Shown here in pieces: positions 12,085-44,287 of a stretch of 64,000 nucleotides of DNA. The stretch is taken from assembly GCA_027483505.1 (NCBI GenBank), contig JAIXUP010000058.1:1-64000 (forward strand), given 5' to 3'. Origin of the DNA: Hyphomicrobiales bacterium (lineage in GTDB: Bacteria > Pseudomonadota > Alphaproteobacteria > Rhizobiales > Beijerinckiaceae). Numbering within the stretch: the stretch's first letter is position 1; each line of letters starts with the position of its first letter. A program made the position numbers and the translations under genes. The notes below the pieces were generated by a model. That model worked only from the letters and a program-made list of their open reading frames with translations, ran no database searches and was not told the origin of the DNA.

Positions 12085-12528
12085 ATGGACATTGACCGGC
12101 TGATGGACATGGCGAAAACGGCGGCGCGTGGCAGTCCCAACAAGGTCCGCCAGGTCGGCGCGGCCATAGCCCTTGCGGATGGCGGCGAGCCGGTCAGCGC
12201 CTGCAACACCTTCCCCGTCGGCGTCGCCGATCTCGCGTGGCGCCATGAGGGTGATGGTCGCTTCGTCTGGATGGAGCATGCCGAGCGCAACGCGATCTAT
12301 GCGGCGGCGCGCGCCGGCAGGGGGCTTGCCGGCGCAACCATCGCCTCGACCTTTTTCCCCTGCATCGATTGTGCCCGCGCCATTGTGCAAACCGGCATCG
12401 CACGCCTGACGACCTATGATCCGCCGCTGGATGATCCGGTGTGGGGCTCGGCCTTTCCGCGCTCGCAGATCATCCTGGAGGAAGGCGGCGTGGCCGTCAC
12501 GCTGTTGCCGAGGCCGCCTGCGCCTTGA
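12085..12528 (+). CDS. cytidine/deoxycytidylate deaminase-family zinc protein
   Basis: 147-residue protein with the zinc-deaminase signature: His65-Ala-Glu67 (HAERNAIYAA) and Pro92-Cys93-x-x-Cys96 (FPCIDCARAI). His65, Cys93 and Cys96 would hold zinc and Glu67 act as the proton shuttle. Closest in layout to dCMP deaminase/ComEB-like proteins, but the substrate could be another amino-nucleobase. The chosen ATG has GGAG eight bases upstream and starts the fold directly. It is transcribed convergently with the DapA-family gene; their 3' ends overlap by 32 bp. Confidence 0.88.
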   Translation: MDIDRLMDMAKTAARGSPNKVRQVGAAIALADGGEPVSACNTFPVGVADLAWRHEGDGRFVWMEHAERNAIYAAARAGRGLAGATIASTFFPCIDCARAIVQTGIARLTTYDPPLDDPVWGSAFPRSQIILEEGGVAVTLLPRPPAP

Positions 12529-13492
12529 GGCTGCTCCGCGTCGGCGCGAGCCCGCTGCTGGCAAAGGCCTGCGCGATCACCTGACGCTCGGCCTCGCTCA
12601 AGGGCAGCATCGGCCGGCGCACCGCCCCTCCGGTCTGGCCCAGCAACTCCTGCCAGAACTTCGCGTGCGCCTGCGGCTTCTCGGGCGGCCGCGAGGCCTT
12701 GAAAGCGTGCCGGACCGGCTCGAGCGACTGCCAGATCGCCCGCGCGCCTCTGACGTCGCCGGCGAAAGCGCTCTCGGTGTAGTCATGCATGCGCAGGTCG
12801 CCGGCTGTCTGGAACAGGTAGGGCGGGTTGGAGCACAGATAACACTGCCAGTTCAGCTCGAGGATGTTGTCGAGCCATTCCTCCTCAGAGGCGGTGGAGA
12901 CGATGATCCTGTCGCCAACCATCTGCGTGAGCTTCACATACATCTCGCGCGGCACGCTGTACTTGATCGCCACGATGTTGGGCAGTTCGGCGATCCGGGC
13001 GCACAATTCCGGGCTCATGAGATAGCCTGAATCCGGATGGCTCCACATGGCGATGCCAATGTTCACCCGTTCCGAGATAGACTTGTAGTAGGCATACAGC
13101 GTCTCGTCCTGTGCCTTCAGGAAATGCAGGACCGGCGCATGCACGACGATGAAGTCGGCGCCGATCGCCTCGGCGTAGCGCGCCAGTTCGATGACCGTGT
13201 CCATGTTCTGGTCCGAACAGGACAGGATCGAGCCTGCACTTGTGCCGATCTCATCGACGGCGATATCGAAGGCCCGCTTGCGCTCATCCAGCGACATCGA
13301 GAAGAACTCGCCCTGCTTGCCGTTGATGAAGAGCCCGCGGATCTTGAGATCGTCAATCCAGTGGCGGATGTTGCTGCGGAAGCCGTGCTCATCGAGCGAC
13401 AGGTCCGGGCTGAACGGCTGGAGCGCCGCAGCCCAGATGCCGCGCAGCTTCTCCCGCGCATAGGCCTTCGCATCATTGCGGGCATACTTCAT
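12497..13492 (-). CDS. dihydrodipicolinate synthase (DapA) family lyase
   Basis: 331-residue TIM-barrel enzyme of the DHDPS/N-acetylneuraminate lyase family. The candidate Schiff-base lysine is Lys177 in IVAIKYSVPREMY; the substrate-loop region reads INGKQGEFFSMS (56-67). It is longer than housekeeping DapA and is the last gene of the kynurenine-type operon, so a catabolic aldolase or hydratase acting on a ring-cleavage product is more likely than lysine biosynthesis. The chosen ATG has GGGAG just upstream and overlaps the stop of the preceding gene as ATGA; a longer upstream start is possible but poorer. Confidence 0.85.
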   Translation of the reverse strand: MKYARNDAKAYAREKLRGIWAAALQPFSPDLSLDEHGFRSNIRHWIDDLKIRGLFINGKQGEFFSMSLDERKRAFDIAVDEIGTSAGSILSCSDQNMDTVIELARYAEAIGADFIVVHAPVLHFLKAQDETLYAYYKSISERVNIGIAMWSHPDSGYLMSPELCARIAELPNIVAIKYSVPREMYVKLTQMVGDRIIVSTASEEEWLDNILELNWQCYLCSNPPYLFQTAGDLRMHDYTESAFAGDVRGARAIWQSLEPVRHAFKASRPPEKPQAHAKFWQELLGQTGGAVRRPMLPLSEAERQVIAQAFASSGLAPTRSSLKAQAASATA

Positions 13493-15723
13493 CGCGCTTC
13501 TCCCTTGTGGGCCTGGGCTTGCAGGGCCGTCCAGATGGTCTGGGCGGTACATGGCATGTCGATCCGGGATACGCCAGCCGGCGCAAGCGCGTCATGGATG
13601 GCATTGATGATGGCGGCGGGAATGCCGATGCAGCCGGCCTCGCCCGCGCCCTTTGCGCCGAGCAGGTTCATGCGCGATCGTACCGGTCGGCTGACGATCC
13701 GCGCCGGCGGTATGTCGGCAGCGCGCGGGACCCGATAGTCCATCAGGCTTCCCGTCAGAAGCTGGCCGTCCGGATCATGGACAAGGCGCTCCATCAGGGC
13801 CTCGCCCAGACCTTGCGCCAGCCCGCCGAGAAGCTGGCCCTCCAGCAGAACGGGGTTGATCACGACGCCCGCGTCATCGATCCAGACGATCTGCCCGACC
13901 GTGGGAACGCCGGTGTCCGGATCGATGGTGACGGTCGCCACCACTGCGCCGGAGGCCCAGGCCTCGCCTTTCGCCTCGTAGCGAGCCGAGGTCGCAAGGC
14001 CCTTGTTGCGGACCCCGGGCGCCAGCGCCGCCTGGGCAAGCGCCTCCCAGGACAGGCTCGCCGTTCCCGTCGTGGTCACCCATCCCGCAGCGTTCCGGAC
14101 AAGGGAGCGCGGCTCGGCCTGCAAAACCGTGGCCGCCAGCGCGCGGGCCTTGCGCAGGAAGAGCCGCACGGCCTTGACGATGGCGCTGCCGCCGATCGGG
14201 GTCGAGCGGCTGGCGAGCGCGCCAATGCCTTCGGGTGTCAGCGCGGTGTCGCCATGGACCACCCGAACACGCTCCTCCGCGCAGCCCAGCGCACCCGCTG
14301 CGATCCGCGCGGCCGCAGTCTCGCGGCCCTGCCCCTGCGATGTCGAGCCGGTCGCGACAAGGATCGCACCGGAAGGATCAAGGCTGATGGCGGCGCTTTC
14401 CCAGCCATGGCCGCACGGCTCGGCATAAAGCGCCATTCCGAGCCCGGCGAGCGTGCCCCTTGCGCGCAGCCGCGCCACCTCGCGCCGTAACCCGCGCAGG
14501 CCCGCGCTTCGACGCAAGGTCGCGATCAGGCCGGGAAAGTCGGACGCGTCGAGGATGTCTCCGGACGCTGTCGGAGCGGGCAGGTCCGAGCGGGTGCGGA
14601 CATTCCTGAGCCGCAGTGCCACCGGATCGATGTTGAGTGTCCGCGCAGCCTCGTCGACCAGCCGCTCCATCAGCAGTGTCGCTTCCGGCCGCCCGGCCCC
14701 GCGGTAGATGCCGACCGGCGCGTGTCCGGTCAGCGCGGCGGAGACGGTGATGTCGACATGCGGCACGCTGTAGGGCCCCGGCAGGATGCGGCCGGCATTG
14801 CGCGCAGGCACGGCGCCGGAGAATGGCATCCAGCCGCCCAGCGGAAAAGCGCCCTCCGCTTCCAGCGCCACGAACGCCCCGTCGGCCATGACGCCAAGCC
14901 GCGCCGACAGGCGCCCGCCACGGCCGGCGGTGGCGCTCAGGAAATCCTCCGAACGGGTCGCCGTCCACTTCACCGGGCGTCCGGTCCTCATGCTTGCCAA
15001 AGCGACCACAGTGTCTTCGGGATAGAGTGACGCCTTGCCGCCGAAGGAGCCGCCGACATGTGGCGCGATCACGCGCACCTGGTCGGGCGACAGTCCGAGG
15101 ATGCGGGCCAGATCCATGCGCGCCCGATGCGGCGTCTGCGTCGGAAGCCAGACCGTGAGCGCCTGCGCGGCCACGTCCCAGCTCGCGAGCGCGGCGCGCG
15201 GTTCCAACGCCATCGGAGCCAGCAGCGCGTGCTGCACGGAAACGGTGATGACATGATCGGCACGCGCCATCGCCGCCAGCGTGTCGCCTTGTGACCAAGT
15301 CTGCCGCAGGGCCTCGCACGGCCCTGGCAGCTCCGGAGCGATCTCGACGCCGATGCTCTCGGCCAGATCCATCGCCGCCCAGCGGTCGCGCGCCACCACG
15401 GCGGCGACGGGCTGGCCAAGGCACAGGACACGGTCCTGCGCCAGCAACGGGGCGGGATGCGCCGACAGGCCGGGAACCAGCGGATTGACGGACGTCCGCC
15501 CAAGCGCGGCGACATCGCCCCCCGTCAGGATCAGGATCGCGTCTGCCGAGCGGCGCGCCGCCTCCGCATCAAGCCGCGTGATGACCCCGCCGGCATGGGC
15601 GCTGCGGGCAAAGCAGAGGAACAGGCAGCCTGCCGGCGCAAGATCGTCCACGAAGGTGGCCTGCCCGCGCAGGAGGGCATCATCTTCGCGCCGCACCGAT
15701 GTTGTGCCGGATATGCGGCTCAC
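13489..15723 (-). CDS. molybdopterin-binding large subunit, xanthine dehydrogenase/aldehyde oxidase family
   Basis: 744-residue large subunit of a molybdenum hydroxylase. Visible: the N-terminal aldehyde oxidase a/b-hammerhead (TSVRREDDALLRGQATFVDDL), the molybdopterin segment HVGGSFGGK, a second cofactor segment (ATGSTSQGQGRET) and the C-terminal GAKGAGEAGC containing the expected catalytic Glu. I place the start at a GTG that overlaps the stop of the dioxygenase gene (GTGA); an ATG 12 codons upstream inside that gene is the alternative. No [2Fe-2S] or FAD subunit gene lies nearby, so it must borrow partners or act unusually. A ring hydroxylation in the tryptophan/kynurenine route is an inference. 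Confidence 0.85.
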   Translation of the reverse strand: MSRISGTTSVRREDDALLRGQATFVDDLAPAGCLFLCFARSAHAGGVITRLDAEAARRSADAILILTGGDVAALGRTSVNPLVPGLSAHPAPLLAQDRVLCLGQPVAAVVARDRWAAMDLAESIGVEIAPELPGPCEALRQTWSQGDTLAAMARADHVITVSVQHALLAPMALEPRAALASWDVAAQALTVWLPTQTPHRARMDLARILGLSPDQVRVIAPHVGGSFGGKASLYPEDTVVALASMRTGRPVKWTATRSEDFLSATAGRGGRLSARLGVMADGAFVALEAEGAFPLGGWMPFSGAVPARNAGRILPGPYSVPHVDITVSAALTGHAPVGIYRGAGRPEATLLMERLVDEAARTLNIDPVALRLRNVRTRSDLPAPTASGDILDASDFPGLIATLRRSAGLRGLRREVARLRARGTLAGLGMALYAEPCGHGWESAAISLDPSGAILVATGSTSQGQGRETAAARIAAGALGCAEERVRVVHGDTALTPEGIGALASRSTPIGGSAIVKAVRLFLRKARALAATVLQAEPRSLVRNAAGWVTTTGTASLSWEALAQAALAPGVRNKGLATSARYEAKGEAWASGAVVATVTIDPDTGVPTVGQIVWIDDAGVVINPVLLEGQLLGGLAQGLGEALMERLVHDPDGQLLTGSLMDYRVPRAADIPPARIVSRPVRSRMNLLGAKGAGEAGCIGIPAAIINAIHDALAPAGVSRIDMPCTAQTIWTALQAQAHKGEAR

Positions 15724-16265
15724 TTCGCCTGCGGCCGGCCCGGATTGACGTGTCCGCACTTCTTGCAGGTCTGGTTCGCCGGGTCAGAGTAGTAGGCTTC
15801 GAACACCGGCGGCATGTCGCGTTCCAGATTCTCGATATGCACCGCCTTCTCGAAGATCACGGCGTTGCAGCTCTGGCAGTACCAGCGATGCGTGTCGAGC
15901 ATGCCATTCTTGCGGATGCGTTCGACGATCAGGCCGACCGTGTTCGCAGGCCGCATCGGCGCGTGCGGGACACCGGCCGGCAGCACATAGATCGAGCCCT
16001 CGTTGATTTTCACATCATGGGGCTTTCCGTCCTTCTGGATGCGCAGCGTCATCTCGCCGGTCAACTGGAAGAAGAATTCCTCGGTCTGGTTGACGTGGTA
16101 ATCAGTGCGCGCATTGGGTCCGCCCACGACCGTGACCATGAAATCATCCATGCGGAAAATGGTCTTGGCCGCAGTCGGCGGCTTGAGCTGCTCCCGGTTC
16201 TCGTCGATCCACTTCATCAGGTTGAACGATGCCGGTTCGGGGGCGATCTGCGGCGAGGTGGACAT
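15720..16265 (-). CDS. nbaC: 3-hydroxyanthranilate 3,4-dioxygenase
   Basis: 181-residue cupin that opens the ring of 3-hydroxyanthranilate to 2-amino-3-carboxymuconate semialdehyde, which cyclises to quinolinate unless decarboxylated. Iron ligands expected from the family are His57, Glu63 and His101. The C-terminal rubredoxin-like site of the bacterial/fungal enzymes is present as Cys130-x-x-Cys133 and Cys167-x-x-Cys170. It lies 54 bp after the kynureninase gene. Its presence implies that 3-hydroxyanthranilate is formed, yet no kynurenine 3-monooxygenase is in view. Confidence 0.96.
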   Translation of the reverse strand: MSTSPQIAPEPASFNLMKWIDENREQLKPPTAAKTIFRMDDFMVTVVGGPNARTDYHVNQTEEFFFQLTGEMTLRIQKDGKPHDVKINEGSIYVLPAGVPHAPMRPANTVGLIVERIRKNGMLDTHRWYCQSCNAVIFEKAVHIENLERDMPPVFEAYYSDPANQTCKKCGHVNPGRPQAK

Positions 16266-16319
16266 GGCCTGTGCTCCTGCGGATGAAGTGTCGGATGAAG
16301 GGTGGGTCGCGGCGCCCGC

Positions 16320-17570
16320 TCAGGTGGTCGGACCGTCGCGCTCGCCGGCAAAGCGACGCCAGTCGCCGGTCTCCATGATGTCGTGCAGCGTGTCGGCGGC
16401 GCGCCAGACCTCATCGAAGCTGGTGTAGAGCGGCGTGAATCCGAAGCGCAGGATGTCCGGCGCGCGGAAATCGCCGACGACGCCACGGCTGATCAGCGCC
16501 TTCATGATACGGAAGCCCTCGGGATGGCTCCATGAGACCTGGCTGCCTCGGACCCGGTCATCGCGCGGGGACGCAAGCGCAAGGCCATGCCGGGCCGCAT
16601 AGCCGTCGACGCAGGCGATGAAGAAGCGGGTCAGCTGCACGCTCTTGGCGCGGACGGCCTTCATCGATGTCCGTTCCCAGATATCCAGCGACGCTTCCAG
16701 CGCGGCATAGGACAGGATCGGCGGCGTGCCGCACTGGAAGGCGCGGATGCCGCCATCGGGTGCGTAGTCGAGGCTGAAGGCAAAGGGATCGCTGTGGCCA
16801 AGCCAGCCGGTCAGGGGCTGGCGCACATGCGGCTGATGCCGCTTCGGACAGTAGACGAAAGCGGGGGCGCCGGGGCCGCCGTTGAGATACTTGTAGCCGC
16901 AGCCGACAGCGAAATCGGCATGAGCTCCGGTCAGGTCGACCTCGAGCGCGCCCGCGCTGTGCGCCAGATCCCAGATCATCAGCGCCCCGGCGGCCTGGAC
17001 CTCGGCGGTCACGGCAACCATGTCATGGAAGGCCCCCGAGCGGAAATCGACATGGGTGAGCAGCACCACGCCGGCCCCGTCGAGCAGCGTCGCCAGCGGC
17101 CTGTCCGCCGTTGCGATCCTGATCTCGATGTCGCCCAGGAGGTCGCGGATCCCCTGGAGCATGTAGATGTCGGTCGGAAAATTCGACGCCTCCGACACGA
17201 AGACGCGGCGATCCGGCCGCAGCCGCAAAGCCGCACAGACCACCTTGAAGATGTTGAGCGAGGTGCTGTCGAGCGCGATCACCTCGCCGTCCTGTGCGCC
17301 GATCAGCCGACCGATCCGGTCACCGACCGCCTGCGGCTTCACGAACCATCCGGCCGTGTTCCAGCTGGCGATCAGGTTCTCGCCCCATTCCTGCCGAAGC
17401 GTGGCGAGGAGCCGGCCCTCCGCGCCCTTGGGCAGGGCGCCGAGGGAATTGCCGTCGAGGTAGATCTTGCCCTGCGGCAGGTGAAAGCTGTCCCTGAGGC
17501 CGGCGAGGCTGTCCGCCGCATCGAGCGCCTCGGCTTCGCGTCGCAGGCCAGCCAGTTCAGTGCTCGGCAT
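16320..17570 (-). CDS. kynU: kynureninase
   Basis: 416-residue PLP enzyme cleaving L-kynurenine (or 3-hydroxykynurenine) to (hydroxy)anthranilate and alanine. The PLP lysine lies in AVGCGYKYLNGGPGAP, and other cofactor-pocket segments (DSTSLNIFK, WDLAHSAGAL) are intact. Length is normal for the family. The start shares one base with the stop of the formamidase gene (TGATG), indicating coupled translation. Confidence 0.97.
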   Translation of the reverse strand: MPSTELAGLRREAEALDAADSLAGLRDSFHLPQGKIYLDGNSLGALPKGAEGRLLATLRQEWGENLIASWNTAGWFVKPQAVGDRIGRLIGAQDGEVIALDSTSLNIFKVVCAALRLRPDRRVFVSEASNFPTDIYMLQGIRDLLGDIEIRIATADRPLATLLDGAGVVLLTHVDFRSGAFHDMVAVTAEVQAAGALMIWDLAHSAGALEVDLTGAHADFAVGCGYKYLNGGPGAPAFVYCPKRHQPHVRQPLTGWLGHSDPFAFSLDYAPDGGIRAFQCGTPPILSYAALEASLDIWERTSMKAVRAKSVQLTRFFIACVDGYAARHGLALASPRDDRVRGSQVSWSHPEGFRIMKALISRGVVGDFRAPDILRFGFTPLYTSFDEVWRAADTLHDIMETGDWRRFAGERDGPTT

Positions 17571-18430
17571 CAGCTTGTCTTTCCATGTGCAAGGTCCAGC
17601 GTGGCGCGCGTCACCCGCGATCCGGGATCGGCGAGGTCCATCAGCGAATTGAAGTGATTGAGCCCCGGCTGAATGTAGACCTCCAGCGCCGGCATCGGCA
17701 AGCGCCAGGCCGCCGCCAGCGCCTCGGACTGGCGGTGGAAGCCCGGCGTCTCATGCTCGGCCCAGGTCATGGCAACGGGGCAGCGCAGCAGCGGGGTCTG
17801 GTGCGCGGGGCTGTTGCGGAGGGCCTCGGCCTCATCCATGCGCATCACATCGTTCACATAGCTCAGGCGGACCGGCTTGAGATCGAACACGCCCCCGATC
17901 AGGTGCAGCCCGGCCAGCGCGGGCAGGCCGCCGACGCCACGCACCGCAGCCATGGCGGCAAGATGAGCGCCGGCCGAGTGTCCTGCCAGCACGGTCCGGC
18001 CGGGATCGAAACCCAGTTCGGCCGCGCGGGCCACCAGAAAGGCCACGGCCGTCACGACGTCATCGACAATGCCGTCGAGCCGCGTCGTCTGCCCCAGGCG
18101 ATAGCTGATGGCCGCATAGTTCACGCCGCCCGCGCGCATGGCCGGCGCCGGAAAGCTGGCGACGTCCTTGGACAGCGCCTGCCAGAACCCGCCATGGATG
18201 AACACCACCAGCGGCTTGCCGTCTTCGCCGCAGGGAAAATAGTCGAGGACATGACGCTCATCAGGCCCGTAGGCGAGGCCCAGCTGCGTTGACGGGCCAA
18301 AGGCCGCGCGCGCCAGCCGGCTCTGCTCGGCGTAAAGCCAGATATAGTGCTCGATCCGCTCCACGGTCCTGCTCGGGGAGAAGTCAAGATCGAGGGCGGC
18401 CTTCAAGGCCGCGTCAGGCTGCCCGGTCAT
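17570..18430 (-). CDS. alpha/beta-hydrolase, probable N-formylkynurenine formamidase (arylformamidase)
   Basis: 286-residue alpha/beta-hydrolase. The oxyanion motif HGGFWQ (79-84), nucleophile Ser152 in AGHSAGAH and a C-terminal His259 in GLNHFNS fit the animal/fungal arylformamidase type, not the metal-dependent KynB common in bacteria. It would hydrolyse N-formylkynurenine, the product of the dioxygenase encoded immediately upstream (ATGA overlap), and hand kynurenine to the kynureninase encoded downstream. Function is inferred from family and order; the fold is secure. Confidence 0.88.
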   Translation of the reverse strand: MTGQPDAALKAALDLDFSPSRTVERIEHYIWLYAEQSRLARAAFGPSTQLGLAYGPDERHVLDYFPCGEDGKPLVVFIHGGFWQALSKDVASFPAPAMRAGGVNYAAISYRLGQTTRLDGIVDDVVTAVAFLVARAAELGFDPGRTVLAGHSAGAHLAAMAAVRGVGGLPALAGLHLIGGVFDLKPVRLSYVNDVMRMDEAEALRNSPAHQTPLLRCPVAMTWAEHETPGFHRQSEALAAAWRLPMPALEVYIQPGLNHFNSLMDLADPGSRVTRATLDLAHGKTS

Positions 18431-19596
18431 GCCGCGCCGGTCCTGCCGACCGCGCTTTTCGCCGTGCCGACGCGGGCCTCCCGCAACAGATCGACGAAGG
18501 ACGTCCCCCCGGTCCCGAGGCTGGCCATCTGGCCCGAAGGCTTGAGGATGTAGTCGACGCTGAGCCCGATATGCCGGCGCCGGAAGATGTCGAGCTGTTC
18601 CACCGCCGAATCATACGCAGCCCTCAGTTCGGCATGGCCCGCCCCCGCCACGCGCTGGCGCACCTGCGAGGCTGCCGCGAGATCCTGCACGAAGGCCCGA
18701 TGCCGCGTCGGCATGTAGTTCCGCATTTCGCGCAGGAAAACGGCGGCATGGCCCTCATGGCGGATGCCCAGCGCCGCGTCGAAGGTCTGGATCAGGGAGC
18801 TCTGCCCGGCGCTGCCGCCGGCCAGCACGACAGGGTTCGGCGACACCCCCTCATAGACCGCTCCGGGCGCGGGCCAGCCGGCGAGAAAGGGCCGGATCCG
18901 GTGAAAGAAGATGTACGGATCGCACCATTCCCGCATCCGTTCGAGCGCCACGATCAGGGTTGGCAGGCCCTCGGCCAGTTGCGACAGCGCGCGCGTCAGG
19001 CCGGCAAGGTCGCCGGCGTCCGCATGGCGCACGGCATCGGCCGAGGCCGCGATCAGCGGCGCGCCGAGGATCTCGATACCAAGCGTCGCAGTGAAGAACC
19101 AGGTCTCGTCCGAGCCGCCGAGAAAACCCAGGAGCAAGCTTGCATTGTCCGCTGAAACCGGACTGCCGCGGTCCACCCGCCGCCAGTTCTGAAGTGTCAT
19201 CGATGCGTGCGAGACCAGCGGCTTGCGGCCCAGCACGGCGGCCAGCTGGCAGACAGGACCAGCGATATTGGCCGGAATGTGGAAATCCGGCTCGACATCG
19301 CCCCAGACCCAGGCATTCGTCAGCACGCTCAGCGCCAGAAAAACGCGCTCCTGTTCGGCCGGGGTGGCAAGGCGTCCGACATCGATGGGCGGCAAAGCCC
19401 GTATGGCTTGCCTGACCCGCCGCATCCGGATCAGGGCGGCAAGATCCTGGGCGGCATCGTCCCATGCGGCGAACCAGTCGGGCGCGGTGATTAGTGGGTC
19501 CGCCTCGGGCACGAAGCCGGTCGTGGCGCTGATCCCGTAATCCGCCAGAGCTCCCAGGGTCTGCCGGGGCGCAACGGGCGTGGCTGCAAATGTCAT
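18427..19596 (-). CDS. indoleamine 2,3-dioxygenase (IDO) family haem protein
   Basis: 389-residue protein with IDO-family features and not those of the smaller bacterial tryptophan 2,3-dioxygenase: FFHRIRPFLAGW (230-241), GGSAGQSS (260-267), MRNYMPTRHRAF (291-302), the proximal haem ligand His342 in FRRRHIGLSVDYI and GTGGTSF (361-367). It would open the indole ring of tryptophan to N-formylkynurenine in the cytoplasm. The next three genes encode formamidase, kynureninase and 3-hydroxyanthranilate dioxygenase, in pathway order. Substrate preference (L-Trp, D-Trp or a substituted tryptophan) is not readable from sequence. Confidence 0.92.
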   Translation of the reverse strand: MTFAATPVAPRQTLGALADYGISATTGFVPEADPLITAPDWFAAWDDAAQDLAALIRMRRVRQAIRALPPIDVGRLATPAEQERVFLALSVLTNAWVWGDVEPDFHIPANIAGPVCQLAAVLGRKPLVSHASMTLQNWRRVDRGSPVSADNASLLLGFLGGSDETWFFTATLGIEILGAPLIAASADAVRHADAGDLAGLTRALSQLAEGLPTLIVALERMREWCDPYIFFHRIRPFLAGWPAPGAVYEGVSPNPVVLAGGSAGQSSLIQTFDAALGIRHEGHAAVFLREMRNYMPTRHRAFVQDLAAASQVRQRVAGAGHAELRAAYDSAVEQLDIFRRRHIGLSVDYILKPSGQMASLGTGGTSFVDLLREARVGTAKSAVGRTGAA

Positions 19597-19686
19597 GACA
19601 GGCCTTCTTCAACACCAGTCGTCACATCGACGGACCATGGCAGATTCCGCGCCGGAGGAGGAGCCCCCCGCAGCGCAGGACACATG

Positions 19687-20973
19687 TCAGGCGGCGCGTT
19701 CGTCGATCCAGTCGCGCGCCTGCATCCACCAGTAGGCGCCTTGCGTGGCGGCGCGTCCCACCGGGCCGCCGGCCCAGCGCACGGCCCAAGGCGAGAACAT
19801 GCGCCAGCGCCCGTCGCCTTCGGCAATGCCGGCCGCCACCACGATCGCCGCGGCGGCAGTCTGGGCCACGCCATGCCCACCGAAGGCCGAGGACAGCCAA
19901 AGGCCGTCCTTGAGGCGCGTCACATGCGGCATCATGTGCGTCGCATAGCCCATCACGCCGGGCCAGGCATGAGTGATGCTGACGTCCTCAAGCTGGGGAT
20001 AGACCGACAGGATGTCGCGGCGCATCATTTCCCGGAGGGCCGGCGGCTCGCGCGTGTCGGTCGTGATGCGCCCGCCCCAGAGCAGCCGATCGCCATCGAC
20101 GATGCGGTAGTAGTCGCCGGCGCGCCGGCTATCCGACAGGGCACCGCGCCAGGTCAGGGCCTGCGACAGGCGCGGACCAAGAGGTTCGGTCACGGCCACA
20201 TAGGTTGCGACCGGTAGCAACGCCCGCGCAGCGGCGCCGTGGATGCCGCCAAGGTCGGCATTGCCGGCCAGAACCACGTGGCGCGCGCTGATCTCGGCGC
20301 CGGAGCCGGTTCGCACGCGCCAGCCAGCACCGTCCGCGATCAGCGCGACGGCCTCCGTTCCCTCGTGGACAAGACCGCCCGCCCGCTCGATCCGCCGCGC
20401 CAGCGCCAGCGCCAGATTGAGCGGGTGAACCTGAAAGGCGCTCGGATCATGGCTGGCCTCGAAATACCGCTGCGAGTGCGCCACGGCGCGGACCTGTTCG
20501 ACGCTCCATGGCTCGGTGGCCGTTCCGAGACGCGCGGCCATCTCGCGGGTGCGGGTCGCGAAATCCGCGCCCTGCTTCTTGCGGTAAACCGTCAGCTTGC
20601 CGGTACCCATGACCAGGGCGGGGTCGGCCGCGAGCGCCACCTCGCGCACGAGTTCGACACCCTCGCGCGAGAGGCCGTAAAGCGCGCGCGCCGCCGTCTC
20701 GCCGACACGGGCGATGATCGGCGCCGCCCGTTGCGCATAGCCCGGGCTGACAAATCCGCCATTGCGGCCCGAGGCGCCCCAGCCGATTCGCCGGCGCTCC
20801 AGCACGGCGATGCCAAGCCCGCGTTCCGCCAGCAGCCGGCCGACATGCAGCCCCGCGAAGCCCCCACCGACGATGCAGACATCCCGCTTCACGGATGCGG
20901 CGGGCTCAGGGCGCACCGGATGATCCCGGCGCGTCGCGGCATACCAGCTGTCAGGATAGCCGCCTTGCTCCAT
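19687..20973 (-). CDS. FAD-dependent oxidoreductase, DAO family
   Basis: 428-residue flavoprotein of the D-amino-acid-oxidase-like family (related to gamma-glutamylputrescine oxidase). The dinucleotide-binding motif is VCIVGGGFAGLHVGRLLAERG near residue 30, followed by GWGASGRNGGFV. It probably oxidises an amine or amino acid C-N bond. It is one base after the PLP-enzyme gene and 90 bp before IDO. It lacks the aromatic-hydroxylase pattern, so it does not fill the missing kynurenine 3-monooxygenase step. Confidence 0.88.
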   Translation of the reverse strand: MEQGGYPDSWYAATRRDHPVRPEPAASVKRDVCIVGGGFAGLHVGRLLAERGLGIAVLERRRIGWGASGRNGGFVSPGYAQRAAPIIARVGETAARALYGLSREGVELVREVALAADPALVMGTGKLTVYRKKQGADFATRTREMAARLGTATEPWSVEQVRAVAHSQRYFEASHDPSAFQVHPLNLALALARRIERAGGLVHEGTEAVALIADGAGWRVRTGSGAEISARHVVLAGNADLGGIHGAAARALLPVATYVAVTEPLGPRLSQALTWRGALSDSRRAGDYYRIVDGDRLLWGGRITTDTREPPALREMMRRDILSVYPQLEDVSITHAWPGVMGYATHMMPHVTRLKDGLWLSSAFGGHGVAQTAAAAIVVAAGIAEGDGRWRMFSPWAVRWAGGPVGRAATQGAYWWMQARDWIDERAA

Positions 20974-20974
20974 T

Positions 20975-22192
20975 TCAGCCGGCCAGCGCCCGCTCGAGGC
21001 TGGCTGTCAGTCGGTCCACCTCCTCGATCGTGTTGTAGTGGACCATCGAGACGCGCAGCACGCCGCCGCCATCGGCGAGCCCGAGATGCTCGACCAGACG
21101 GCGGGAATGGAAATCCCCATGGCGGATGCCGATGCGGTCGGTGTCCACGCGCCTGACGATCTCATCCGACCGCCGGCCATCGAACTTGAAGGCGATGGTC
21201 GGAACCCGGCTCTCCTTGGGCGCATGGCGGTCGCCGATGATGCGCACATCATTGCGGTCACGCAGCCAGCCGAGCAGGCGCTCGCCGAGCACAGCCTCAT
21301 GGTCCGCAACCGCGTCGAAGGCCCGCACGATGGCCGCGCGGTCACCGGTGCCGCCGCCGAGCCCGTCGAAGTAATCGACAATGCCGGTGCAGCCCCAGGC
21401 CAGTTCGTAGTTGGCGTTGCCCGGCTCCAGCTTGGTCGGCACTTTGTCCTTTGTGTAGAAGTAGTGGTACTGGCTCTCGAGTTCGGCCAGCAGGTCGTAG
21501 CGACCCCACAGCATCGCGAAGTGCGGCCCGTAGGTCTTGTAGAACGAGAAGGCGTAGAAGTCGGCGCCGCAGGCCTGGACATCGACCGCCCGGTGCGGCG
21601 CGTAGGCGACGGCGTCGACCACCAGCTTTGCGCCGCCCGCATGCACGATGGCTGCGATCTCGGGGATCGGGTTGATCGTCCCCAGGATGTTCGAGGCATG
21701 GGTGACGGCGACCAGCCGCGTGCGCGTGCTCATCAGCGCACGCAGATCATCGAGATCGACGCCGAAAGTGTCGGGGTTGATTGTCCAGACCTTGAACACG
21801 ACCCCGCGCTCCTTGAGGATGTGCCATGGCCCGATGTTGGATTCATGATCGAAAACGGTGACGATGACCTCGTCCCCTGGGCTGAACTGCGGTGCCATGG
21901 ACGTCGCCAGCAGGCGCATCAGGGCCGATGTCGTCGGGCCGAGCACGACTTCTTCCGGCCGGCTGGCGTTGACGAACCGCGCGATGCTGGCCCGCGATTG
22001 CCCCAGCCGTTCCGAGGCGCGCACCGAGTGGCTGTAGGATGCGCCCGTCTGCACGCTCGTGGTCAGCAGGTATTCCGACACCCGCTCCGCCACATCACGC
22101 AGCACCAGTGAGCCGCCTGCATTGTCGAAATAGACGAAGCCGTCCGCAAGCGCGGGGAACCGTGCGCGCACGGCTGTCAGGTCAAGCATCAC
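20975..22192 (-). CDS. class V aminotransferase-fold PLP protein (cysteine-desulfurase-like)
   Basis: 405-residue fold-type I PLP protein resembling the cysteine desulfurase-like family TIGR01976. The PLP lysine is Lys219 in FSFYKTYGPH. The C-terminal loop that carries the active-site Cys in true desulfurases reads IRHGDFHSRR here, without Cys, so desulfuration is unlikely; a lyase or transaminase activity fits better. It follows the ABC ATPase gene by 39 bp and precedes the DAO-family gene by one base. Confidence 0.85.
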   Translation of the reverse strand: MMLDLTAVRARFPALADGFVYFDNAGGSLVLRDVAERVSEYLLTTSVQTGASYSHSVRASERLGQSRASIARFVNASRPEEVVLGPTTSALMRLLATSMAPQFSPGDEVIVTVFDHESNIGPWHILKERGVVFKVWTINPDTFGVDLDDLRALMSTRTRLVAVTHASNILGTINPIPEIAAIVHAGGAKLVVDAVAYAPHRAVDVQACGADFYAFSFYKTYGPHFAMLWGRYDLLAELESQYHYFYTKDKVPTKLEPGNANYELAWGCTGIVDYFDGLGGGTGDRAAIVRAFDAVADHEAVLGERLLGWLRDRNDVRIIGDRHAPKESRVPTIAFKFDGRRSDEIVRRVDTDRIGIRHGDFHSRRLVEHLGLADGGGVLRVSMVHYNTIEEVDRLTASLERALAG

Positions 22193-22231
22193 AGGGAAAG
22201 TCCTTCGGTCAGGGAACGAATGCGCAGCCTG

Positions 22232-22990
22232 TCACAGGATCTGGCTGAGGAAAAGCTGCGTTCGGTCATACTGGGGCCGCGCGAAAAACAGCTCGGGCGG
22301 GGCCTCCTCGACGATCTCGCCCTGATCCATGAAGATCACCCGGTCGGCCACCTTCCGCGCAAAGCCCATCTCATGCGTCACCACCACCATGGTCATGCCG
22401 CTCTCGGCCAGCTCGATCATGGTGGCCAGCACCTCGTTGATCATCTCGGGATCGAGCGAGGCGGTCGGTTCGTCAAACAGCATGATCTTCGGACGCATGC
22501 ACAGGGCGCGCGCAATCGCGACGCGCTGCTGCTGCCCGCCCGAGAGCTGCATCGGGTACTTGCGCGCCTGCTCCGGGATGCGCACGCGCGTGAGGAACTC
22601 CATCGCCAGCGCTTCTGCCTCATCCTTGGGCATCTGCTTGACCCAGGTCAGGGCGAAGGTGCAGTTCTCGAGGATGGTCAGGTGCGGAAACAGGTTGAAC
22701 GACTGGAAGACCATGCCGATGTCGCGCCGGATTTCGGTGTTGGCCTTCTCGTCTTTCGAAAAGCTCCGCCCTCCGACGATCACCGTGCCTTCCTGGTTGA
22801 CCTCAAGCTGGTTGATGCAGCGGATCATCGTCGACTTGCCTGAGCCGGACGGACCACACACGACGATCCGCTCGCCTTCATAGACGCGCAGATTCACGTC
22901 CTTGAGCACGTGGAACGCGCCGAACCATTTGTTGAGCCCGATCAACTCGATCACAGGCTCGCGGCGCACGGCCTTCTCCACGGCGCTCAT
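22232..22990 (-). CDS. aapP: polar amino acid ABC transporter ATP-binding protein
   Basis: 252-residue ATPase of the GlnQ/AapP type: Walker [10 protein letters not shown], signature [15 protein letters not shown], Walker [14 protein letters not shown], switch His in [10 protein letters not shown] chose the ATG that overlaps the stop of the upstream permease (ATGA); the longer open frame has no homology. It energises the Q/M permease pair of this operon. The second amino acid importer at 39.7-43.2 kb has no ATPase gene, so this protein may also serve that one. Confidence 0.95.
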
Positions 22991-24360
22991 CGCTTGTGCC
23001 CCGTGTTGAGCCGCTTCTCGAGGTTCATGCTGTATTGCGACATCGCGAAGCAGAACACGAAATAGATCACCGTGATGAAGAAGAACGGTTCGATGAACAG
23101 GCCGATCCACAGCGTGTCCTGCCCGACGGCGCGGGCCATCGACAACAGGTCGAGAAGGCCGATGATCGAGACCAGCGTGGTGTCCTTGAACAGGCCGATG
23201 AAGTTGCCGACGATGTTCGGGATCATGATCTTCAGCGCCTGCGGCATGATGATCAGCGCCGTCGACTGCCAGAAGCCGAGGCCCATGGCCGACGCCGCCT
23301 CATATTGTCCGCGCGGAATGGCCTGCAGTCCGCCGCGCACGATCTCGGCCATGTAGGCCGAGGCGAACAGGCAGACCGCCACGATCGCGCGCAGGAGCTG
23401 GTTGACCTCGACGCCGGCCGGCAGGAACAGCGGCAGCATCGTGTTGAACATGAACAGGATGGTGATCAGCGGCACCGAGCGGAACAACTCGATGAAGGTG
23501 GTGCAGAGCAGGCTGATCACCGGCATCTTGGAGCGCCGCCCGAGCGCCAGCACGATTCCGGCCGGCAGCGAAAAGGCGATCCCGAACCCGGAGATCACCA
23601 TGGTCAGGAACAGACCGCCCCAGACGCGGGTGCGCACCTCGACGAAATCGAGTTCGAAGACGATGAACAGCGCCACGCCGAACAGGGCCAGCAGAACGAC
23701 CTGCCCGATCCGGCTTTCCGCTTCCGCCGTGGTCGCGCCGAATTTGCGGGCAACCATGCGCAACACCGGTACGCCCCAGAGCGTCTCCGTCACGGCCGTC
23801 AGCACCGTCCACAGAAAACCGGTCAGGCCGACCGCAATCAGCGCCGTCCAGATCGCACCTTTCTCGCCACCCATGAACATGTAGGAGGCAAACAGCGGAA
23901 AGAGCAGCACCATCGACAGGCCGATGGCAACCTTCGAGTGCACCCTGGGCAGCCACAGCGGAACCAGCCAGACGATCAGCAGCGCAAAGGCGAGATTGAT
24001 GCGCCAGACCTCGTCCTTCGGATAAAGCCCGTAGATCAGGTTGGGAATCCAGACCACGACGCCGGGCCAGCACGCGCCTGCATTGCCGACCTTGTCGAGG
24101 CAGTCGCGGCGGCTGGACGCCTCCCAGACCGCATTGGTCCAGGCCCAGCCGATGAAGCCGTTGAGAACGGTGTAGACGACCCAGATGCCGAGGATGGTCA
24201 GAAACGCGCTCGGCACGCTCGAGAACATGTTCTTGCGTATCCAGGCGGCCGCGCCCAGCGTGCTGCTTGGCGCGGCCCGCGCCGCAGCAGGCACGAAGAC
24301 CTTCACCGTGTCCGGAGTATCGGTCAGATGAGCGGCCTGCGGAGGGGACAGGGTGTTCAT
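22987..24360 (-). CDS. aapM: general L-amino acid ABC transporter permease AapM-like
   Basis: 457-residue inner-membrane permease. An Ala-rich cytoplasmic N-terminus is followed by a membrane helix, a long extracytoplasmic loop with two Cys ([13 protein letters not shown]), several further helices and the C-terminal transport domain with the EAA-like loop ([17 protein letters not shown]-type: here [15 protein letters not shown]). This enlarged layout is typical of AapM, not of simple HisM-type permeases. It starts three bases after aapQ ends and overlaps aapP. Confidence 0.93.
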
Positions 24361-24363
24361 GGC

Positions 24364-25563
24364 TCACCGCTCCTTCAGCAGGACGCGGCGGTTATACTGG
24401 TTCATCACCAGCGACACGAACAGGCTGACCGCGCAGTAAAAGCCCATCGTCATCGCCACGATCGGGATCGCGCGGCCTGATTGGTTGAGCGATGTGTTCA
24501 TCCATACGCTCACCAGATCGGGGAACCCGATCGCGATCGCCAGCGACGAGTTCTTCGTCAGGTTGAGATACTGGCTGATCAGCGGCGGAATGATCACGCG
24601 CAGCGCCTGCGGCAGGATGATCGAGGCCATCGTGCGGGAGGGCTTCACGCCGAGCGCGCGCGCCGCCTCCGTCTGGCCATGGCTGACGGACTCGATGCCG
24701 GCGCGGACGATCTCGGCGATGAAGCAGGAGGTGTAGACCGACAGCGCGATGATCAACGCGCAGAAGGCCGGCGGCACGTTGACCCCACCGCGGAAATTGA
24801 AGCCCTGCAGCACCGGCTTGTTCCAGGCGAGCGGGCTCCCGAGCAGCAGGAAGGCCAGCACCGGCGCCGCGATGACGATGCCCAGCACAGGCCACAGCAC
24901 CGGCAGGATGCGTCCCGTCCGCTCACGCAGCCGGCGGGCCCAGACGCCGTAGGCGATCGCCCCGGCCACAGTGGCGGCGAGGACAATGAGGAACAGGCCA
25001 AAGCCGGGTTCGGGCACAGGTCCGGGGAAGTAGAAGCCGCGGTTGTTGAGATAGAACAGGTCGCTCCACGCAAGGCTCATGCGCGGGTTCGGCAGCAGGG
25101 TGAAAACCCCGAAATACCAGGCGATGATCTGCAACAGCAGGGGCGTGTTGCGCAGGATTTCGATGTACCAGCGGGCGAGATTGCGGATCACCCAGTTGTT
25201 CGACAGACGCGCCAACCCCATGAACAGGCCCATGATCGTGGCGAACAGGATGCCGATGGCGGCCACCAGCAAGGTGTTCGCGAGGCCGACCTGGAACACG
25301 CGCAGGTAGCTGTCGCCCTCGCGGTAGGGGATCAGCGTGAAGCTTATGTTGAACCCGGCGGAAACGCCGAGGAACTCGAAGCCGGCTGACATGCCGCGTT
25401 GCGACATGTTGGTGATGGTGTTGCTGACCAGATACCAGATGCCGCCCACGACAATGGCAAGCGTGAGGATCTGGTACAGGACCGCCCTGACCTTGGCGTT
25501 GTTCAGCCACGACCCGGCCTGCGCCGGCGCGGGCCTGAGGCTGCTGCTCTCGACAATTGCCAT
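24364..25563 (-). CDS. aapQ: general L-amino acid ABC transporter permease AapQ-like
   Basis: 399-residue permease partner of AapM, with a membrane helix near the N-terminus, a long loop containing GMSAGFEFLG, and a C-terminal transport domain with GQTEAARALGVKPS. The start has a strong GGAGGT ribosome site; the eight-codon upstream extension lacks one. It follows the binding-protein gene after a strong RNA hairpin, as expected where the binding protein is made in excess. Confidence 0.93.
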   Translation of the reverse strand: MAIVESSSLRPAPAQAGSWLNNAKVRAVLYQILTLAIVVGGIWYLVSNTITNMSQRGMSAGFEFLGVSAGFNISFTLIPYREGDSYLRVFQVGLANTLLVAAIGILFATIMGLFMGLARLSNNWVIRNLARWYIEILRNTPLLLQIIAWYFGVFTLLPNPRMSLAWSDLFYLNNRGFYFPGPVPEPGFGLFLIVLAATVAGAIAYGVWARRLRERTGRILPVLWPVLGIVIAAPVLAFLLLGSPLAWNKPVLQGFNFRGGVNVPPAFCALIIALSVYTSCFIAEIVRAGIESVSHGQTEAARALGVKPSRTMASIILPQALRVIIPPLISQYLNLTKNSSLAIAIGFPDLVSVWMNTSLNQSGRAIPIVAMTMGFYCAVSLFVSLVMNQYNRRVLLKER

Positions 25564-25623
25564 CCGTGACCTCCAGCCGATCCGCATCAGGCGCGATCGG
25601 CGCTGCCATCCCGCGAGCCGCTT

Positions 25624-25652
25624 GCGGGGCCGGGCTTACGGCCCGGCCCCGC
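25624..25652 (-). terminator. strong GC hairpin between aapJ and aapQ (attenuator / mRNA stabiliser)
   Basis: A perfect 12-bp inverted repeat (GCGGGGCCGGGC and its complement, 5-base loop TTACG) lies 15 bp after the aapJ stop codon and 60 bp before the aapQ start. There is no following T-run, so it is probably a 3'-stabilising or attenuating hairpin that lets the binding protein be made in excess over the membrane subunits. Confidence 0.7.
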
Positions 25653-25666
25653 GTTGCTTCGACAGA

Positions 25667-26692
25667 TCAACGGAACGGCGGGGCGTAGAGGATGCCGCCC
25701 TTGGTCCAGAGCGCGTTCAGCGAGCCGTCGCGCGGGATGTTGATGGGGGTCTTCGGCCCGACATGGCGCTCGTAAATCTCGCCGTAGTTGCCGGTGGCCT
25801 TGAGCACACGGACCATGAAGTCCTTGGTCAGGCCCATGCCTTCGCCGATGTTGCCTTCGACGCCGAGCAGGCGGCGGATGCCGGGATTGGTCGAAGTCAG
25901 CATCTGGTCGACATTGGCGGAGCTAACGCCGAGTTCCTCGGCTTCGATCATGCCGTTGAGCGTCCAGCGCACGATGTCGCCCCAGTTGTTGTCGCCATGG
26001 CGCACGACCGGGCCGAGCGGCTCCTTCGAGATGGTTTCCGGCAGGATGATGTGGTCATCCGGCTTGGCGAACGACGAACGGCGGGCGGCGAGGCCCGACT
26101 TGTCGTTTGTATAGGCGTCGCAGCCACCGCCCAGATAGGTACCGACCAGAACGTTCTCGTTCTCGGCGGTCACCGGTTTGAAGGTCATGTTGTTCGAGCG
26201 GTAGAAGTCGGCGATGTTGAGTTCGGTCGTGGTGCCGGTCAGCACGCACACGGTTGCGTTGTTGAGTTCCTTGGCGGATTTCACGCCCGAGGCCTTGGGC
26301 ACCATGAAGCCCTGGCCATCATAGAAGTTCACGCCCGCGAATTCGAGGCCGAGCTGGGTGTCGCGAACGGCGGTCCAGGTGGTCGTGCGGGACAGGACGT
26401 CAGACTCGCCGTTGGCCAGCGAGGTGAAGCGCACGGCCGACGTCACCGACTGGAACTGGATCTTCCTGGGATCGTTGAAGATCGCCGCGGCAAGCGCGCG
26501 GCAGATGTCAACATCCATGCCCGACCAGGTGCCGTCGGAGGCGAGGGCGTAGAATCCGGGCGTGGGCGGACCCACCTGGCAATTGAGGCTGCCGCGTGCC
26601 TTGACCTGCGCGAGAGTTGCCTGGGCTTGCGCCGGAGCGGCATAGGCCACCGCCGCGGTCACAGCCAGAGCAGAAAGAAGTGTCCTGATCAT
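25667..26692 (-). CDS. aapJ: amino acid ABC transporter periplasmic binding protein AapJ-like
   Basis: 341-residue family-3 solute-binding protein. The signal peptide (about residues 1-23, ending PAQAQA) precedes a mature protein starting QATLAQVKARGSLNCQV and containing GTWSGMDVDICRALAAA. The C-terminus (LNALWTKGGILYAPPFR) matches the AapJ subgroup. GAGG precedes the ATG. It is the first gene of the importer-plus-kynurenine operon, so its ligand (perhaps tryptophan or a relative) sets the substrate of the pathway. AapJ proteins can be broad-specificity. Confidence 0.92.
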   Translation of the reverse strand: MIRTLLSALAVTAAVAYAAPAQAQATLAQVKARGSLNCQVGPPTPGFYALASDGTWSGMDVDICRALAAAIFNDPRKIQFQSVTSAVRFTSLANGESDVLSRTTTWTAVRDTQLGLEFAGVNFYDGQGFMVPKASGVKSAKELNNATVCVLTGTTTELNIADFYRSNNMTFKPVTAENENVLVGTYLGGGCDAYTNDKSGLAARRSSFAKPDDHIILPETISKEPLGPVVRHGDNNWGDIVRWTLNGMIEAEELGVSSANVDQMLTSTNPGIRRLLGVEGNIGEGMGLTKDFMVRVLKATGNYGEIYERHVGPKTPINIPRDGSLNALWTKGGILYAPPFR

Positions 26693-26761
26693 CGATTGTC
26701 ATCCTCACCCGAGATTGTTGAGCCACGCCAATTCACAGCGTTATCAAGTGAAGCAGAATCC

Positions 26762-26776
26762 ATGCCAGTGGGCAAT
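26762..26776 (-). promoter_or_regulatory. possible T-N11-A type operator upstream of aapJ
   Basis: On the minus strand the 15-mer ATTGCCCACTGGCAT contains a T-N11-A dyad (TGCC/GGCA arms) about 70 bp upstream of the aapJ start. A separate 8-bp palindrome TTGCGCAA sits 10 bp further upstream (26786-26793). Both resemble regulator sites but no regulator gene is adjacent. Seen as sequence symmetry only. Confidence 0.25.
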
Positions 26777-26839
26777 GCGTACCGGTTGCGCAAATTCCGG
26801 GGTTCGTCGCCCAGAACTCACGCCGTCTTGCGGTCGCGT

Positions 26840-39733: not shown

Positions 39734-40786
39734 TCAGTGCCCCTTGGGCCCGCCTGCCTCGAGCGAGCGGCTCCAGCGCGAGAGGGCGAAGCAGATCAGC
39801 CAGTAGATGGTTCCGGCGAACAGGTAGGCTTCGATGTTCATGCCGACCCAGGCCGGGTCCGCAAGCGAACTCTGGGCGATGCCGAGCAGGTCGAGGATCG
39901 AGACGACCAGCACCAGCGTCGTGTTCTTGACCAGCGCGATGAACTCGTTGGTCATTGCCGGCAGCGAGATGCGCAGCGCCTGCGGCAGCGTGATCAGGCC
40001 TGTGGTCTGCCAGTAGCCGAGCCCGAGCGCAGAAGCGGCCTCCGCCTGGCCCTTGGGCAGCGCCTGCAGTCCCCCGCGCACCGCCTCCGCCATGTAGGCT
40101 GCGATGACAAGGCCAAGGCCGATGACGGCGCGCGCCAGCCGGTCAACGCCGACGCCGGCGGGCATGACCAGCGGCAGCAGCAGCGAGGCCAGAAAGATCA
40201 CCGCGATGATCGGAACCCCGCGCCAGAACTCGATGAACACCACCGACAAGGTCCGGATCAACGGCAGGCGCGATTGCCGCCCCAGCGCCAGCAGGATGCC
40301 CAGCGGCACGGCGATCAGCCCGGCATAGATGGCGATGAACAACGTCAGCATAAGCCCGCCCCAGGCCCGCGTCTCGACGGCTGCCAGCCCGTAGCCGCCG
40401 CCGATCAGCCAGACGCCCAGCGGCGGCAGAACCAGCAGCGCTGCGATTCCGAGCCGCAGCCGGGCCCTGCCGGTCAGGACGAACAGCGGCGCAATGGCCG
40501 CCAGCGACACGAGCCCGAACAGGTTGGGCCGCCAGCGCTCGGCCACCGGATAAAAACCGTACATGAACTGGCCGAAGCGGGCGCGGATGAAGACCCAGCA
40601 GGCCCCGCCCGGGACGCAATCGGCGCGCGTCTCGCCGCTCCAGGTCGCATTGACGAGTGCCCAGCGCGTGAAGGGCGTCAGCAGCCAGACCACGCAGACG
40701 GCGATCGCCAGCGTGATCGCGGTCTGCGCCGGGGTCGAGAACAGACGCTGCTGCCACAGCCGGAGGGAGGCGGCGCGCGCGCTCAT
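39734..40786 (-). CDS. aapM: amino acid ABC transporter permease, AapM-like (second system)
   Basis: 350-residue permease with a long loop carrying two Cys (RADCVPGGACW), then the transport domain with GQAEAASALGLGYWQTT and [15 protein letters not shown]-type segment (here TNEFIALVKNTT). It is shorter than the 457-residue AapM at 23 kb but matches it along the second half. The start overlaps the upstream permease stop (ATGA). No ATPase gene follows; the next feature is a tRNA. Confidence 0.93.
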   Translation of the reverse strand: MSARAASLRLWQQRLFSTPAQTAITLAIAVCVVWLLTPFTRWALVNATWSGETRADCVPGGACWVFIRARFGQFMYGFYPVAERWRPNLFGLVSLAAIAPLFVLTGRARLRLGIAALLVLPPLGVWLIGGGYGLAAVETRAWGGLMLTLFIAIYAGLIAVPLGILLALGRQSRLPLIRTLSVVFIEFWRGVPIIAVIFLASLLLPLVMPAGVGVDRLARAVIGLGLVIAAYMAEAVRGGLQALPKGQAEAASALGLGYWQTTGLITLPQALRISLPAMTNEFIALVKNTTLVLVVSILDLLGIAQSSLADPAWVGMNIEAYLFAGTIYWLICFALSRWSRSLEAGGPKGH

Positions 40787-41940: not shown

Positions 41941-41983
41941 GGTTGATGGTATCCGGAAAGCGAGACGCAGATCAGCGGCCTGG

Positions 41984-42135: not shown

Positions 42136-42182
42136 AGTTCATGGGCAATCCGCGATAACGACGGCAGCGAACCGTGCTCAGA

Positions 42183-44283: not shown

Positions 44284-44287
44284 GCCC

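Follow-up and report, generated by a model that had tools for sequence, protein, structure and literature searches.

The subject here is a block of twelve minus-strand genes at positions 12497-26692 of a 64,000-nucleotide stretch (the window) of contig JAIXUP010000058.1 from a Hyphomicrobiales bacterium. With confidence a little short of even, it is read as a catabolic operon that couples an upper part, which would open tryptophan, to a module for 3-hydroxyanthranilate (3-HAA) that recurs in Alphaproteobacteria. Held more tentatively is the specific proposal that the module breaks down 3-HAA without a decarboxylase for 2-amino-3-carboxymuconate semialdehyde (ACMS), using a xanthine-dehydrogenase-family large subunit (XDH-L) or an aldehyde dehydrogenase (ALDH) and then a DapA-family hydratase-aldolase to give C4 and C3 products, and that in the window's lineage it was captured by an importer operon led by indoleamine 2,3-dioxygenase (IDO). 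The more novel lead is the linkage of DapA with 3-hydroxyanthranilate 3,4-dioxygenase (3HAO), not IDO. What can be observed directly are gene identities and order, selection, and recurrent linkage. The lower part has three genes:

15720-16265, minus strand: 3HAO; NF009763 232 bits (cut-off 220), TIGR03037 above cut-off
13489-15723, minus strand: XDH-L, the molybdenum-binding large subunit, likely GTG start 15723; PF02738, PF20256, PF01315
12497-13492, minus strand: DapA-family lyase of a 3HAO-linked subfamily, start ATG 13492; PF00701 103 bits

The lyase fails the 4-hydroxy-tetrahydrodipicolinate synthase model TIGR00674 (72 against 206 bits), and its subfamily is discrete and sharply bounded. 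At E ≤ 1e-60, 47 plasmid records carry it, all 60-80% identical (one module plasmid record, labelled Roseateles, is flagged unverified), as do 23 of 385 genomes in an Alphaproteobacteria sample, the window's included, with the others 57-70% identical. Within the genus the gene is found at E ≤ 1e-50 in 32 of 67 genomes, again counting the window's, two close relatives being at 97% and 92% and the rest at 63-66%. Lys197 in AIKYS, the Schiff-base lysine, is invariant among 18 subfamily sequences; the stretches GKQGE, HAPxLxF and WSHPDSGY look unusual for DapA. Against the PDB, the subfamily profile finds 19 sequences at E ≤ 1e-20 (79-102 bits), N-acetylneuraminate lyases and dihydrodipicolinate synthases (DHDPS).

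Neighbors were sought by tblastn, with fixed identity and distance limits, in 55 fetched subfamily loci (22 from the class sample, 20 from the genus sample and 13 from plasmids). 3HAO is near in 45 (in 42 of the 49 loci of at least 12 kb), aspartate dehydrogenase in 33, an alpha/beta-hydrolase in 23, KynU in eight (two being the window's sisters) and IDO in two; since some loci end at a contig edge, the absences are upper bounds. XDH-L alone is found in 19 loci, in every one of which it abuts DapA, a succinate-semialdehyde-dehydrogenase-like ALDH alone in 30, neither in six and both in none. On a 45-row DapA tree the ALDH label needs six changes and the XDH-L label seven, with four and two changes, respectively, forced by supported branches; this would be expected if the two replaced one another, and they are apparently interchangeable as aldehyde-oxidising enzymes. 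Genes for flavin reductase and DUF4863, the latter presumably a 2-hydroxylaminobenzoate mutase, adjoin the module in two plasmid loci, accompanied in one by an NAD(P)H-dependent oxidoreductase gene; because of these and of KynU in eight loci, 3-HAA is suggested as the shared entry point.

For this lower part we infer the following substrates and order of reactions. 3HAO would convert 3-HAA to ACMS, which XDH-L (ALDH in many relatives) would oxidise to 2-amino-3-carboxymuconate in place of a decarboxylase. The DapA-family enzyme, acting via the Schiff-base lysine, would then hydrate this product and cleave it by a retro-aldol step adjacent to the imine or keto carbon at C2, to give oxaloacetate or iminosuccinate (C4) and malonate semialdehyde (C3), with seven carbons in and seven out. 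In many relatives aspartate dehydrogenase would turn iminosuccinate into aspartate, and its presence in many loci would fit an iminosuccinate product. A different order, in which quinolinate arises spontaneously from ACMS and is hydroxylated by XDH-L, with DapA acting later in a pyridine route, is improbable. The nearest solved chains to XDH-L are CoxL, 6-hydroxypseudooxynicotine dehydrogenase and quinoline 2-oxidoreductase, and the presence of an N-heterocycle hydroxylase among these best-scoring relatives speaks for such a route; however, 30 of the 55 loci have ALDH and no XDH-L, and hydroxylation of a pyridine ring would not be expected of an ALDH.

The upper part that would feed 3HAO comprises three genes:

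18427-19596, minus strand: IDO; PF01231 317 bits (cut-off 26)
17570-18430, minus strand: alpha/beta-hydrolase with HGGFW and GHSAG motifs; PF20434
16320-17570, minus strand: kynureninase (KynU) of bacterial type (Trp70, Thr282); TIGR01814 297 bits (cut-off 246)

An earlier note on this DNA had assigned the first of these to the IDO family and not to tryptophan 2,3-dioxygenase (TDO), and the profile search bears it out, as does a score of up to 190 bits against human IDO1. An AlphaFold model built with 26 sequences (mean pLDDT 86.4) has 50 listed PDB matches, all of them IDO1 or IDO2, at a TM-score by query length of 0.84-0.89; TDO identity is ruled out by the PF01231 match, the IDO1 alignment and these structural matches together. 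Window residues His342, Arg235, Phe230 and Phe231 align with His346, Arg231, Phe226 and Phe227 of human IDO1, of which His346 is the proximal heme ligand and Arg231 binds substrate; His342 and Arg235 are invariant among 26 IDO sequences. The motif AGGSAGQSS is as in human IDO1, and 60 of 79 other IDO loci have xG(Q/E)TG(S/A)QS(S/G), one has DGGSAAQSS and 18 have neither pattern. Those loci came from 80 kept out of 304 matches to two peptide patterns drawn from four Sphingomonad-like IDOs and the window's, so that IDO1-like bacterial IDOs may be missed. Queried with the window's proteins at E ≤ 1e-10, none of the 79, all of which lie outside contig L032 of a sister genome, yields DapA, 3HAO, KynU or XDH-L.

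IDO is rare, being found in eight of 398 genomes of a phylum sample at E ≤ 0.001 (seven above cut-off) and in three of 397 of an order sample, the window's own included in both. PrnB (PF08933), tried as an outgroup family, gave no match anywhere and is uninformative. On a Methylocystis rosea plasmid (L015) an IDO-like gene adjoins groES/groEL, and in another genome (G187, loci L007/L024) the IDO match is split into two abutting pieces. On another contig of the window's genome (C42; L133:9574-10509) there is a divergent PF03301 (TDO-family) protein that scores 76.7 bits against a TIGR03036 cut-off of 390.7 and lies beside infC and a BacA-like ABC transporter; the IDO is not the sole gene of the two tryptophan-dioxygenase families in this genome.

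The hydrolase aligns over residues 20-275 with the kynurenine formamidase 4e11 at 41 bits, with a lipase and esterases in the PDB scoring higher, and is probably arylformamidase-like. Hydrolases 35-41% identical to it are present in module loci that have no IDO. That a probably formamidase-like alpha/beta-hydrolase stands in place of KynB, as had been proposed, holds for the operon; a single PF04199 protein elsewhere in the genome was considered as its KynB and set aside, not being tied to the operon because its scanned neighbors look like a different catabolic set. The kynureninase scores 438 bits against the Pseudomonas fluorescens enzyme (1qz9) and 141-157 against the animal-type entries. 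The description of the route as animal or fungal in type thus suits IDO and perhaps the hydrolase, but not the kynureninase. From family membership, IDO would open the indole ring, the hydrolase would strip off the formyl group and kynureninase would release alanine.

The remaining six genes lie upstream:

25667-26692, minus strand: AapJ-like periplasmic amino-acid-binding protein; PF00497; dN/dS 0.03 against L032
24364-25587, minus strand: AapQ-like permease; PF00528, TIGR01726 above cut-off
22987-24360, minus strand: AapM-like permease; PF00528, TIGR01726 above cut-off
22232-22990, minus strand: AapP-like ATPase, with an ATGA overlap; PF00005
20975-22192, minus strand: class-V pyridoxal-phosphate (PLP) enzyme; TIGR01976 397 bits (cut-off 352)
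19687-20973, minus strand: FAD-dependent amino-acid oxidase of the DAO family; PF01266 190 bits, PDB matches weak only

The binding protein reaches 156 bits with TIGR01096, under the cut-off of 256, and the Aap-type ABC importer would take up tryptophan, kynurenine or an analogue. The closest solved relatives of the PLP enzyme are FGM3 (312 bits) and UstD (215 bits), of C-C bond lyase or aldolase types; relatives of the oxidase at E ≤ 1e-70 occur in 22 of 199 genomes of the family and, besides the window's own, are 34-48% identical. Proteins 60-68% identical to the PLP enzyme are encoded beside amino-acid importer genes on Microvirga and Mesorhizobium plasmids. A second Aap-like importer set lies at 39737-45367 (AapJ 46%, AapQ 42% and AapM 46% identical to the first), accompanied by a gene of the enolase family (MR_MLE) and one of DUF1611, possibly D-amino-acid related.

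The position of the PLP and oxidase genes between importer and IDO, together with purifying selection on both, lends something to the idea that they prepare a substrate for an IDO acting on D-tryptophan or on an N-alkyl or hydroxylated tryptophan, and a ring-hydroxylated compound would spare the need for kynurenine 3-monooxygenase (KMO). Nevertheless, in two plasmids relatives of the PLP enzyme adjoin amino-acid importer genes with no IDO detected; this alternative is quite improbable.

Comparison within the genus indicates which parts persist. The block from the PLP gene to DapA is seen in three genomes: the window's, G1134 (a metagenome-assembled genome (MAG) from Lake Pavin; contig L032) and G1133. 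Against L032, eleven genes, i.e. all but IDO, have dN/dS of 0.03-0.20, and this, with the NCBIfam matches, rules out chance open reading frames (ORFs). L032 has the whole operon, with IDO (L032:10001-11179) frameshifted by a 4-bp deletion near its 3′ end. Of 75 positions conserved to at least 90% across 71 outgroup IDOs, its IDO differs at 29 ahead of the frameshift; the window's differs at 21, all common to L032, so that L032 has eight extra and the window none unique. The deletion could be an error in the MAG, but the eight extra changes are hardly to be explained in that way. In G1133 IDO has no internal stops; what is gone is about 4.4 kb, corresponding to window 22367-26788. The deletion takes out aapJ together with the promoter region, the two permease genes and the greater part of the ATPase gene, the 3′ end of which remains at the deletion site (L236 ~11100; G1133:C31). 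Four other AapJ relatives elsewhere in G1133 (47-54%) may mask the importer loss. The PLP enzyme, oxidase, hydrolase, KynU, 3HAO, XDH-L and DapA genes are open in all three genomes, and over the three genome pairs the dN/dS of these seven is 0.06-0.23, as against 0.28-0.42 for IDO.

The layout is thus real, but the union of importer and IDO is recent or weakly kept. Import and IDO are labile, and the lower part is the stable core; the importer-IDO arrangement was seen only in this lineage. The earlier proposal that import and degradation form one regulated unit is accordingly not kept in either nearest relative. Kynurenine or 3-hydroxykynurenine may be the real substrate, imported as such, with IDO a late and dispensable addition. 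The frameshift and extra departures in L032, where the rest of the operon is open, are in keeping with this, and single plasmid loci of Shinella, Ensifer, Roseateles, Tritonibacter and Phaeobacter have KynU with the module and no IDO. On the other hand, in neither the window nor G1133 does IDO have an internal stop, its dN/dS of 0.28 points to some constraint, and it shares an ATGA overlap with the hydrolase gene; direct kynurenine import is judged somewhat unlikely.

The joined tryptophan and 3-HAA operon, preferred here, has a number of points to answer. In its upper part, one sister has a frameshifted IDO, and of the eight genes compared IDO evolves fastest. The kynureninase has the same Trp/Thr pair (Trp70, Thr282) as the P. 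fluorescens enzyme, a pair that marks preference for kynurenine; from the pair it follows that kynurenine would yield anthranilate, not the substrate of 3HAO. KMO was not found in the operon or among the genome's seven strongest FAD_binding_3 loci, these being the strongest of 25 PF01494 matches, typed by best model: PobA, PRK08132 (a 166-aa stretch), a generic FAD family twice, two UbiH-type hydroxylases and a 3-hydroxybenzoate 6-monooxygenase below cut-off. Because KMO was not found, the 3-hydroxyl must come with the imported compound or be added by an enzyme whose gene lies elsewhere; either the compound is already hydroxylated, or another monooxygenase acts on kynurenine or anthranilate, and this is the reading's weakest point. 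(An anthranilate hydroxylase is described for Geobacillus in PMC4539516.) The kynurenine route as first written for this DNA is thus incomplete.

In the lower part, XDH-L has no small 2Fe-2S subunit detected next to it, either in the window or, with the one valid query, in 18 of 19 loci; matches to the small subunit (Fer2_2) number six on other contigs of the genome, and one of the 19 related loci has it beside XDH-L. HAPxLxF stands where the usual second catalytic tyrosine of DapA would be expected, and that tyrosine seems absent. 3HAO is not seen in ten of the 55 loci (some through contig end), the loci are not independent, some being near-copies, and an independent-pairs sign test setting XDH-L against ALDH, with too few pairs (two supported), is not significant. 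In favor of the reading, no ACMS decarboxylase (ACMSD)-type gene lies beside 3HAO in the window operon, the rest of the genome being unsearched, and no amidohydrolase, the family of ACMSD, is annotated in the 13 plasmid loci. Against it, the gene tables of these loci are incomplete, and a carboxymuconolactone-decarboxylase-family gene is near the module in L026 and a TatD-family gene in L189. The genome's one aspartate dehydrogenase match is on another contig (C34), beside a cupin gene. It is 50% identical to the S. mexicanum module protein and adjoins a LIV-type importer, the binding protein of which shares 61% identity with one from the module; because a cupin and a MetE-like gene adjoin, it may serve another pathway. 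That C34 stretch (L195:10011-17768), with its 320-aa cupin, MetE-like, LIV-type importer and aspartate dehydrogenase genes, perhaps represents a related amino-aromatic pathway.

That KMO was not found bears also on a de novo NAD route of eukaryotic kind, from tryptophan to quinolinate, of whose five steps IDO, hydrolase, KynU and 3HAO would supply four. The operon has, however, genes for import, XDH-L and DapA, and plasmid loci with transporters carry DapA along with 3HAO; such a route is highly improbable.

That the twelve genes are packed on the minus strand from importer to DapA-family lyase, as the earlier note had it, is confirmed by direct reading of all ORFs and junctions; the largest gap is 90 nt. 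In transcription order, aapJ is followed after 79 nt by the first permease gene and, 3 nt on, by the second, which overlaps the ATPase gene at ATGA; 39 nt then precede the PLP gene, 1 nt the oxidase gene and 90 nt IDO, which meets the hydrolase gene at ATGA, and that in turn meets KynU at TGATG; 54 nt further is 3HAO, joined to XDH-L at GTGA and thence to DapA at ATGA. The listed starts of the ATPase, XDH-L and DapA genes are probably too far upstream and better placed at 22990, 15723 and 13492: the longest ATPase ORF begins at GTG 23110, with the likely start at ATG 22990, and ATG 13492 is the start common in the DapA subfamily alignment. Going by spacing, the twelve genes would form one transcript. 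None of six minus-strand terminator-like sites falls in an intergenic gap (nine were observed on both strands, against 6.3 in shuffles), and the 79-nt gap 3′ of aapJ has a GC-rich hairpin without a T run. A 95-aa ORF at 19593-19880 has no family match, overlaps the oxidase gene and was dropped. The region's GC content (0.65-0.68) does not stand out, and one scan of viral contigs with six peptide patterns found no viral relatives.

The operon may be under sigma54 control, a candidate element lying ahead of aapJ:

26752-26768, minus strand: predicted sigma54-like GG-N10-GC promoter element, 59 nt upstream of the start of aapJ

This pattern, composed only after the site had been seen, matches once in the window against 0.04 expected and is present in 4 of 100 shuffles. 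Allowing one mismatch to a stricter sigma54 pattern gives three sites against 7.3 expected, the aapJ site not among them; because that pattern is unenriched, the promoter claim rests on the position of the site and on its presence ahead of aapJ in L032. In G1133 it falls inside the deleted stretch. On the 5′ side, 147 nt away on the same strand, are CoA-transferase and HMG-CoA-lyase-like genes, and on the 3′ side a plus-strand deaminase-family gene meets the DapA end.

With an importer on one side and enzymes for its product on the other, this IDO offers a testable context for bacterial IDO, and the three related genomes illustrate the loss of parts from such an operon. The module of DapA, 3HAO and XDH-L or ALDH, often with aspartate dehydrogenase, is carried on alphaproteobacterial chromosomes and plasmids, where it is annotated only as 'dihydrodipicolinate synthase family'. 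It suggests an unrecognised, decarboxylase-avoiding exit from 3-HAA, and growth on kynurenines, 3-HAA or 2-nitrobenzoate could be due to it. In open-licence PMC literature, 3-hydroxyanthranilate, dihydrodipicolinate synthase and aspartate dehydrogenase were nowhere found together, and the matches listed include no description of module or operon. The view of the whole as a little-described system needs qualifying for IDO, since bacterial IDO was already known (Yuasa 2011, as cited in PMC4191572 and PMC4217691); the DapA, 3HAO and XDH-L part does seem little described in the literature as far as it was accessible.

Among known systems, the rhizobial Aap general amino acid transporter has the same order of binding protein, two long permeases and ATPase; the window importer, with PAAT-type domains, is likened to it by gene order and domains. 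The IDO cluster of a Haladaptatus plasmid (L016) has IDO, alpha/beta-hydrolase and kynureninase together, as in the window, but with benzoate-CoA ligase and acyl-CoA genes nearby, and its annotated neighbors include neither 3HAO nor DapA nor an importer; the cluster perhaps represents an archaeal route from tryptophan to 2-aminobenzoyl-CoA. DapA-family hydratase-aldolases such as NahE use a Schiff-base lysine to hydrate their substrates and cleave them by a retro-aldol step, and the same chemistry is proposed for the window's enzyme, although the PDB matches of its subfamily profile are neuraminate lyases and DHDPS. According to PMC4217691, IDO of the Erythrobacter litoralis type is slow, and the mammalian, fungal, Gemmatimonas and Streptomyces branch alone is efficient. 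The window's IDO is of the same family and keeps the heme His and substrate Arg positions, but looks more IDO1-like than a Qipengyuania IDO, which scores 135-142 bits against human IDO1, less than the window's. In the 2-nitrobenzoate (onb) pathway of Cupriavidus ST-14, according to PMC5817917, OnbD decarboxylates ACMS, and a dehydrogenase and a deaminase then act. Ring cleavage of 3-HAA by 3-HAA dioxygenase is common to both, but in the window operon, with no decarboxylase visible, a DapA-family enzyme and XDH-L, or ALDH in its relatives, are linked to it instead.

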